A stretch of 64,000 bases of DNA, from assembly GCA_000471045.1 (NCBI GenBank), contig KI301992.1, forward strand, positions 1,202,069-1,266,068. Direction: 5' to 3'. Source of the stretch: an actinobacterium LLX17. GTDB taxonomy: Bacteria > Actinomycetota > Actinomycetes > Propionibacteriales > Nocardioidaceae. Under the pieces are notes generated by a model that saw only the letters and a list, made by a program, of their open reading frames with translations, did no database searches and had not been told where the DNA came from. Below are positions 46,899-50,498 of this stretch, piece after piece. Position numbers and translations under genes: made by a program. Every line of letters starts with the position of its first letter. Positions within the stretch are counted from its first letter, which is position 1.

Positions 46899-46915
<17 letters not shown>
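46124..46915 (+). CDS. SURF1 family cytochrome oxidase assembly protein
   Basis: 263 aa with the SURF1 layout: N-terminal helix (WLGFALFVVLLGAVCVQLGI then WQWQKLDERAERN), a periplasmic-side domain (LLVDRGFLETRR, TVSGWLRPD) and a C-terminal helix (HFFYALQWWFFALLAIVGYG). It helps assemble haem-copper oxidase. ATG 46124 overlaps the preceding stop. The last 17 bp are antisense to the ABC-F gene end. Confidence 0.92.
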
Positions 46916-48497
<1,582 letters not shown>

Positions 48498-48548
48498 GCA
48501 GAAGACTTTCGGGCAGGAGCGGACGGTCGTGCGGGACGAGCGACGGCG

Positions 48549-48569
48549 TCACTCCAGCTGGATGGTCAC
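48549..48569 (-). CDS. Leaderless mini-ORF (VTIQLE) upstream of the ABC-F gene
   Basis: GTG ACC ATC CAG CTG GAG TGA: six codons and a stop. TAGGGT on the minus strand (48576-48581) is exactly 6 nt before the GTG, so the transcript should begin at this codon. The stop is 51 nt before the ABC-F start. A leader peptide for translation-dependent regulation is the likeliest role; without conservation data it could be fortuitous. Confidence 0.5.
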   Translation of the reverse strand: MTIQLE

Positions 48570-48602
48570 CGTCCCACCCTACCGGGGCCCTACGCTCGGC
48601 CC
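48570..48602. promoter_or_regulatory. Divergent promoter region ABC-F leader / TPM gene
   Basis: TAGGGT (minus, 48576-48581) and TACGCT (plus, 48591-48596) lie 6 nt before the first codon of the mini-ORF and of the TPM gene respectively, in a 33-bp gap. Confidence 0.6.
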
Positions 48603-50498
48603 ATGCGCACCGCTTCCCGGCTCGGGGCCGCCGCCGGCCTGCTGCTGACGTCGTTGCTGATCCTGGCCCCGCTGCGACCGGCCGTCGCGACCCCACCGGT
48701 CGACGTGGACGGCCCGGTCACCGACCCTGCGGGAGTGCTGGGCGGCCGGGCGGAGGAGGTTCGCGACGCCCTGGACGTCCACCTCGAGGAGGCGGGCTAC
48801 CAGCTCTTCGTCGTCCTGGTGCCGTCGTTCGACGGCCTGGACGGCAGCGCCTGGGCCGACGAGTCCGCACGCGTCTCGCGGCTCGACGACTAGGACGTCG
48901 TGCTGGCGATCGCGACGGAGGAACGCTCGTGGGGGTTGTCCGTCCCCGACGACTTCCCCCTGAGCGACGGAGAGATCGACCAAGTCGTCGACGAGGACCT
49001 GCTCTCCCACCTGCGCGACAGCGACTGGGCCGGCGCAGCCATCGCGACGGCCGACGGTCTGGTGGCGGCCGACCGGACCGGCCCCGGTCCCTGGATCGCG
49101 GGGGGTGGTGTCCTAGCGGTCGGCGTCGGCGTCGGTGGAGCTGCGTGGTGGCGCCGGCAACGCGAGCGGTCGACTGCTGCGGCAGCCCTGGCCGACCTCG
49201 AGCAGCGCAGCGGCGCGGCCCTGGTGGCCGTCGACGACGCGATCCGCGCCTCGGAGCAGGAGCTCTCCTTCGCCGAGGCCCAGTTCGGCACGCAGGCGAC
49301 CCTGGACTTCCGGACCACGATCGACGAGTCCCGCGCCCTCATGACCGAAGCGTTCACCGAGCGTCAGCGGCTGGACGACGACGTCCCCGAGTCCGACCCC
49401 CAACGGCGCACGATCGCCGAGCACATCATCGATCTGTGCACGCGGGCCGACGAGGCGCTGGACGCCAAGGCCAAGGAGTTCGAGGCCCTGCGAGACCTGC
49501 ATCGACGAGCGCCGGAGATGCTCGCCGAGCTCGCCACCCGAGCCACGGAGATCCGGGCCCGGGTCGCCGCGTCGCGCGCGACGCTCGAGGGTCTCTCCGC
49601 GCGGTACCCCGCCACTGCTCTCGACACGGTCGACGACCACCCGGTCGAGGCAGAGCGCCTCCTCGACCAAGCCCAGCACCACGTGGAGCAGGGCCGAGCC
49701 GTCCTCGAGACGGACCGTGCTGCGGCCGTGGCCCACGCCCGGTCGGCCGAGGCCGCTCTGGGGCACGCGTCGACCTTGCTCGATGTGCTCGACGGCGCCG
49801 ACGCCGCCCTCCAGGCCGCGCCCGTGCTGATCGCTGAGCGGCTGGCGGCGGTCGACGGCCTGCTCGCCGATGCCGCGACGCACGCCGCGGACGACCCGTC
49901 CGTGACGCCGGCCGCGGAGCGAGCGCGCATCGCCGCCGAGGGGGCACGGTCCTCATCGGCCGACCCCCTGGCCACCGTGGCTGCGCTGCAGGACGCCGAG
50001 ACGGTCCTGGCTTCCGCCCTGGCACCGGTCCTGGCCGAGGTTGCCCGCATCGAGCAGGCGCGTGCGGCTCTCGCGAGCACGATCAGTCGCGTCGACGGGA
50101 GGATCCGCGTCGTCAGTCAGTACGTCGACTCGCGCGGCGCGGTGATCGGGTCCGAGGCACGCACACGCCTGTCCGAGGCCGGCCGGCACCTGGCGCAGGC
50201 CCAGCAGGCCCAGGACGCCGACCCGGTCACCGCCCTCGGTGAGGCGGAGGAGGCTGACCGGCTCGTCGCCTCGGCGGACAGCTTCGCCCGTGCCGACATC
50301 AGTCGGGCGAGCTCAGCCCAGCAGACGCCCCAGGGTTGGGGCGGCGGTTGGGGTGGCGGAGGTGGCTGGAGCGGCGGGGGCGGCAGCAGTCGCCGCCGCT
50401 CGAGCTCGTCGCGACGGTCCTCGTCGTCGCGGCGGTCGTCGTCGAGCCGGCGGTCGTCAGGCTCGCGCGGCGGGCGGAGCCGCGGCGGCCGTTTCTGA
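48603..50498 (+). pseudogene. TPM-domain protein gene interrupted by an in-frame TAG codon
   Basis: Codons 1-96 give a signal peptide (LGAAAGLLLTSLLILAPL) and the first half of a TPM domain (VTDPAGVLGGRAEEVRDALD; YQLFVVLVPSFDG). TAG at 48891-48893 stops the frame. The same frame continues as DVVLAIATEERSWGLSVPDD, the second half of the domain, then a membrane helix (WIAGGGVLAVGVGVGGAAWW), a long coiled coil and an Arg/Ser/Gly repeat tail. Restart is possible at GTG 48900 (AGGA just before), but that product lacks a signal peptide. A nonsense mutation, programmed readthrough or a sequence error would all fit. TACGCT lies 6 nt before ATG 48603. Confidence 0.85.

Follow-up and report, generated by a model that had tools for sequence, protein, structure and literature searches.

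A conserved, predicted leaderless mini-ORF in the leader of an OcrA/Rv1473-type ABC-F gene of an actinomycete: a putative regulatory leader peptide

We have mapped a six-codon reading frame, predicted to lie at the very 5' end of the mRNA, ahead of a ribosome-protection ABC-F gene. Evolution has preserved this frame across the genus, so that very probably it serves as a control switch read by ribosomes. The explanation that we favour, and to which we assign a probability of roughly 0.55, is that the mini-ORF encodes a leaderless regulatory leader peptide, the C-terminus and stop codon of which would hold the ribosome and thereby set the expression of the ABC-F gene. The motif, the conserved frame and the identity of the gene can be read directly from the sequences compared, and the firmest argument is provided by the codon analysis at the level of the genus, which was based on a tree.

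The leader and the ABC-F gene

The window, i.e. the whole stretch of 64,000 nucleotides that was analysed, belongs to an actinomycete with a genome of 3.0 Mb, and the nearest named relatives of this host are Aeromicrobium. The features of the locus are the following:

48576..48581, minus strand: predicted -10 box TAGGGT (TANNNT at 6 or 7 nt in 41/44 genus leaders)
48575-48570, minus strand: GGGACG, the 6 nt between TAGGGT and GTG, as read from the sequence
48549..48569, minus strand: mini-ORF GTG ACC ATC CAG CTG GAG TGA, (M/V)TIQLE-stop, its GTG being the predicted +1 (leaderless)
48498..48548, minus strand: C-rich spacer of 51 nt (24 C, 12 G) from the mini-ORF stop to the ABC-F ATG
48506..48510, minus strand: GAAAG, the ABC-F Shine-Dalgarno, located 8 nt before the ATG and complementary to the 16S tail of the same genome, CACCTCCTTTCT
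46899..48497, minus strand: ABC-F ribosome-protection ATPase of 532 aa, OcrA/Rv1473 orthologue (NCBIfam, Pfam, best solved relative, orthology)

The sequence of the mini-ORF, its coordinates, the 6-nt gap after TAGGGT and the distance of 51 nt to the ABC-F ATG had been given by an earlier sequence-only reading, and all of them turned out to be exact. The same reading stated that the ABC-F start lacks a Shine-Dalgarno (SD), which was right only in part, since the 5-nt GAAAG stands ahead of the ATG: GAAAG (48510-48506) pairs with CUUUC of the host's own 16S 3' tail (...GGATCACCTCCTTTCT), and GAAAG, GAAGG or GGAG is located at the SD position in nearly all relatives. No recognisable -35 box was found in the leader upstream of TAGGGT.

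The predicted promoter of the leader stands back to back with a divergent one (48576-48605), where TAGGGT-N6-GTG on the minus strand and TACGCT-N6-ATG on the plus strand are about 10 nt apart. The divergent gene (48603-50498, plus strand) codes for a TPM-domain protein with an in-frame TAG at 48891-48893, and the parts on either side of this TAG correspond to profile positions 1-53 and 66-124 of one Pfam domain; this interrupted gene is either a pseudogene, a sequencing error or a case of real recoding.

Judged by its sequence, the ABC-F gene is the actinomycete orthologue of OcrA/Rv1473, of the PoxtA-like oxazolidinone/phenicol-protection type. The protein scored 397.4 bits (cut-off 380) with the NCBIfam model NF000355 of ribosomal protection-like ABC-F proteins, tandem ABC_tran domains with the ABC_tran_Xtn linker were recognised by Pfam, and its best solved relative is PoxtA. 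Orthology was assigned because of the 63-64% identity to the single match in mycobacterial-type genomes and because of the neighbouring gene: the mycobacterial-type orthologues are downstream of an enoyl-CoA hydratase gene, to which the position of rv1473 behind echA12 in Mtb presumably corresponds. The window gene shares its type with two mycobacterial genes: knock-down of Mtb OcrA (Rv1473) leads to linezolid sensitivity, and the protein was proposed to be a displacer of oxazolidinones and phenicols (PMC9159947), while MAB_2736c of M. abscessus acts like OcrA (PMC13041422). By analogy with what was reported for Mtb Rv1473 and MAB_2736c, the window protein would have a putative role in oxazolidinone/phenicol protection.

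Conservation of the mini-ORF in the genus and in the class

The pattern TANNNT-N6/7-RTG (RTG being ATG or GTG) occurs at 21 sites on the two strands of the whole window, and 20 of these open frames of at least 96 codons; it can therefore be taken as a good marker of leaderless gene starts here, many genes of the window look leaderless, and the mini-ORF, the sole short frame among the 21, is exceptional. The same pattern followed by a frame of 5-7 codons is present in 41 of the 44 orthologue leaders of the genus (G028, G043 and G046 have no leaderless frame), whereas dinucleotide shuffles of the 44 leaders gave it 0.16 times on average and the reverse strand not once. The named Aeromicrobium strains display the same leaderless mini-ORF pattern, some of the genus genomes being the same assemblies as these named loci, so that the counts are not wholly independent. 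On the basis of the -10 spacing, which is conserved and typical of the leaderless starts in the window, transcription is predicted to begin on the GTG of the mini-ORF.

Within the genus the C-terminus reads [QR][RL]E-stop in 40 of the 41 mini-ORFs (40/44 leaders), the odd one being VSHPLLL in G009. Along the tree of the ABC-F proteins, the Glu codon of these 40 sequences underwent 5 steps, all of them at the third position and none with a change of residue. The Arg codon is variously CGG, CGT, CGC, CGA or AGA, Leu is encoded by CTG or CTC, and the stop codon is kept while TGA swaps with TAG; variation is seen in the N-terminal residues and in the number of codons (5, 6 or 7). Synonymous changes at conserved codons indicate selection on the peptide and the frame, and the pattern of change fits a constraint on the C-terminal residues and the stop rather than on the nucleotide string. 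The sequence-only reading had staked its proposal on the conservation of this frame, which has proved to be strong. No second QRE mini-ORF was detected elsewhere in the host genome (the pattern searched for was QRE, not QLE), and the EttA-like paralogue (L002) has no such mini-ORF.

Beyond the genus, the ABC-F gene is a near-universal orthologue in the class, present in 282 of 296 genomes (264 of the 267 good ones) and nearly always in single copy, and a leaderless frame of 4-10 codons was found in 146 of 288 leaders in all, 105 of them outside the genus. An earlier, smaller set had given the motif with a short frame in 22 of the 89 leaders outside the genus versus 0.58 in shuffles. In other families (Streptomyces, Kitasatospora and many more) the leaderless frames are mostly 5-8 codons long and the peptides are different: MAILLAH, MAVLSGH and similar ones in Streptomyces/Kitasatospora (L044-L088), MMPVAD, MSAPD/MRTPD, MSIAAS/MTSAAS, xxTD and xCEP in further families. 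The Streptomycetaceae-type leaders that were scanned all use TAG as the stop, and TGA is the usual one elsewhere in the set; the weak stop context TGAC, found at 49 of 94 TGA stops, is not informative because the spacer is 44% C. Among the non-genus peptides the last residue is D, E, H, Q or N in 45 of 76 cases versus 16 of 257 inner residues, and the penultimate one is Ala, Ser or Thr in 38 of 76 versus 93 of 257 (P 0.03), where counts and P values are indicative only and overstate the independent evidence, since the peptides are related by descent within families. The context rule of linezolid and chloramphenicol, which asks for Ala, Ser or Thr in the penultimate position (PMC8987054), was considered for these peptides and rejected: the enrichment outside the genus is only mild, and the penultimate residue in the genus is R or L. 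The mini-ORF is missing from the mycobacterial-type orthologues and from the Nocardioides-type ones (L021, L023, L024, L026); in the latter the ABC-F start is about 8-14 nt behind a -10-like box, so that leader-peptide control seems to have been lost there.

It is conceivable, although we regard this extension as doubtful, that throughout the class the single-copy OcrA-type ABC-F gene is governed by a family of leaderless leader peptides that act by termination arrest. Every lineage would have its own peptide of 5-8 residues, selection favouring particular residues next to the stop (E, D, H or S in final position and often A or T in the one preceding it); the mRNA's 5' end would sense a blocked peptidyl-transferase centre, and the ABC-F protein would reset the system. 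A leaderless start and a short length that are kept across families while the peptide differs would also suit a mere landing site, where 70S ribosomes arrive at the 5' end, translate six codons, terminate, and then either reinitiate or raise the local ribosome density for ABC-F, the peptide itself being inert. This alternative is unlikely in our view, as the last residues are kept in the genus through synonymous codon changes, and a reinitiating ribosome would have far to go from the mini-ORF to the ABC-F gene (46-69 nt in the genus and as much as about 150 nt elsewhere).

A possible hold at termination and the leader RNA

We favour a hold of the ribosome at termination on account of the conserved residues against the stop, the clade-specific stop codon and the nature of the gene. 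As we infer it, from the transcription start through the pause, its inducer and the direction and route of control to the feedback, the mechanism would run as follows. Transcription would start at the GTG; 70S ribosomes would then load on the mRNA at its 5' end and read six codons. The conserved residues before the stop (here Q-L-E-stop) may, at any rate in certain circumstances such as inhibition of the peptidyl-transferase centre, cause the ribosome to pause or arrest when it is terminating or about to do so. The footprint of the held ribosome would cover the entire 5' end of the leader and alter what follows: it might unmask the ABC-F SD, or it might block Rho on the C-rich spacer. By either route more ABC-F protein would be made, which could clear the arrested ribosome, and the loop would be shut. 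To our knowledge QRE/QLE is not among the published arrest motifs.

As for a switchable element downstream of the mini-ORF, SD masking was supported in the xFHQRE sister clade, not in the window nor overall. In that clade base pairing joins the mini-ORF (CTTTCATCAG) to the SD region (CTGATCTGAAAG), the SD being almost fully paired, and in most members its unpaired value rises in silico from 0.00-0.16 to 0.46-0.66 on blocking the mini-ORF; in the window leader it is 0.43 versus 0.44 when the mini-ORF is blocked. This bears on the proposal of the sequence-only reading that the mini-ORF is a leaderless version of the leader-peptide control of ABC-F genes: the conserved frame and a gene of the antibiotic-protection type, for which leader-peptide control is known (PMC9159947, PMC10314930, PMC10201436), speak for it, and the unchanged SD of the window leader in silico speaks against it. 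The Arg codon AGA of G016 also permits pairing with the SD region (TCCAGAG/CTCTGGA). Genus-wide, native mini-ORF/SD pairs were on average no stronger than swapped ones (mean rank 0.42-0.46), and a direct duplex was rejected as a general mechanism for want of overall specificity, with support in the xFHQRE clade and a few others only. A hairpin just behind the mini-ORF stop, within the spacer, was seen in many relatives. RNAalifold on 21 mixed leaders returned no structure because the hairpins do not align, and hence changes were counted clade by clade, which revealed double changes (covariation) in the xFHQRE hairpin behind the stop and weak covariation at most in the mini-ORF/SD helix.

The strong mini-ORF/SD pairing in the xFHQRE clade and the double changes of hairpin 2 would agree with an RNA element, in which the sequence of the mini-ORF is kept for base pairing in an SD-masking stem and its translation is incidental. 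We hold this to be improbable: such a stem is lacking from the predictions for the window and for most other clades, and the changes (Glu codon altered at its third position alone, TGA/TAG) follow the pattern of a reading frame.

A search of the window leader for an intrinsic terminator found none, and the spacers of the genus have a C>G skew of 0.33 versus -0.06 upstream of the promoter, so that a C-rich, G-poor spacer leaves room for Rho. The same two observations fit a Rho-dependent transcription attenuator, where the untranslated C-rich spacer would be the entry of Rho and a ribosome held on the mini-ORF would block it; as the main explanation this seems quite improbable, given that the C-rich spacer may just keep the 5' leader unstructured and that the footprint of a ribosome halted at the mini-ORF stop would not extend past the beginning of the spacer. 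Pure chance, i.e. a promoter +1 that happens to be GTG with a stop soon after, is hardly credible, for while about 5-10% of purine-start promoters might begin with RTG by chance according to our own estimate, the 41/44 genus leaders, the conservation at codon level and the recurrence in other families contradict it.

Relation to known systems and biological meaning

ABC-F leader peptides are well known, and so are leaderless short ORFs as mycobacterial attenuators (PMC4633059 and work cited there). In streptococci MsrDL (MYLIFM-stop, 6 codons) arrests at termination under erythromycin, and MsrD clears the MsrDL-arrested ribosome and represses itself (PMC10314930). Further ARE ABC-F genes controlled by leader peptides are vga(A), vmlR, cplR, lmrC and are5sc/tiaA, and conserved short uORFs precede cplR, vmlR and lsaA too (PMC10201436, PMC12421871). 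Like MsrDL-msrD and the other ARE ABC-F attenuators, the window has a very short same-strand uORF in the leader of a ribosome-protection ABC-F gene, with a peptide conserved in the orthologues of the genus. The uORFs of ARE ABC-F genes are generally loaded via a ribosome-binding site and act by an intrinsic terminator or by SD masking, whereas the window mini-ORF is predicted to be leaderless, no terminator was found with it, and its peptide family ([QR][RL]E etc.) bears no relation to theirs. The window ABC-F is of the OcrA/PoxtA-like type, for which the literature surveyed describes no leader peptide.

The other resemblance is to the mycobacterial cysteine-rich leaderless short ORFs (Shell 2015, PMC4633059), which likewise are leaderless short ORFs at the 5' end of actinobacterial mRNAs, conserved ahead of a gene whose attenuation by them has been proposed or shown. 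In the mycobacterial type, runs of Cys codons sense cysteine and precede cysteine genes, whereas in the window mini-ORF no codon is repeated and the gene behind it is a resistance ABC-F; a run of cysteine codons is absent from this mini-ORF and from those of the genus. Canestrari 2020 is reportedly also on the mycobacterial cysteine-rich leaderless short ORFs. In the whiB7/wblC attenuator an actinobacterial uORF links blocked translation to antibiotic resistance (as cited in PMC13236596 and PMC12421871); that uORF controls a regulator gene, whereas the window mini-ORF lies immediately ahead of the ABC-F gene itself. The ocrA orthologues of mycobacteria, which were reported to be WhiB7-regulated (Duan 2019, as cited in PMC9159947), have no mini-ORF.

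In our literature search, with most subscription papers and all preprints outside its scope, neither this peptide family nor any leaderless leader peptide ahead of an ABC-F gene came to light. The gene is the orthologue of the ABC-F behind the intrinsic linezolid and chloramphenicol tolerance of mycobacteria, and it is near-universal in actinomycetes. Tools that seek an SD before the uORF could miss leaderless leader peptides; uORF4u includes an SD-search step. The lineage-specific peptides are a ready natural series for the discovery of new arrest sequences. If the proposal is true, it would be unusual for a resistance gene to be controlled by a leader peptide with no ribosome-binding site, and since leaderless starts use 70S ribosomes, such a peptide could answer inhibitors differently from SD-led leader peptides.
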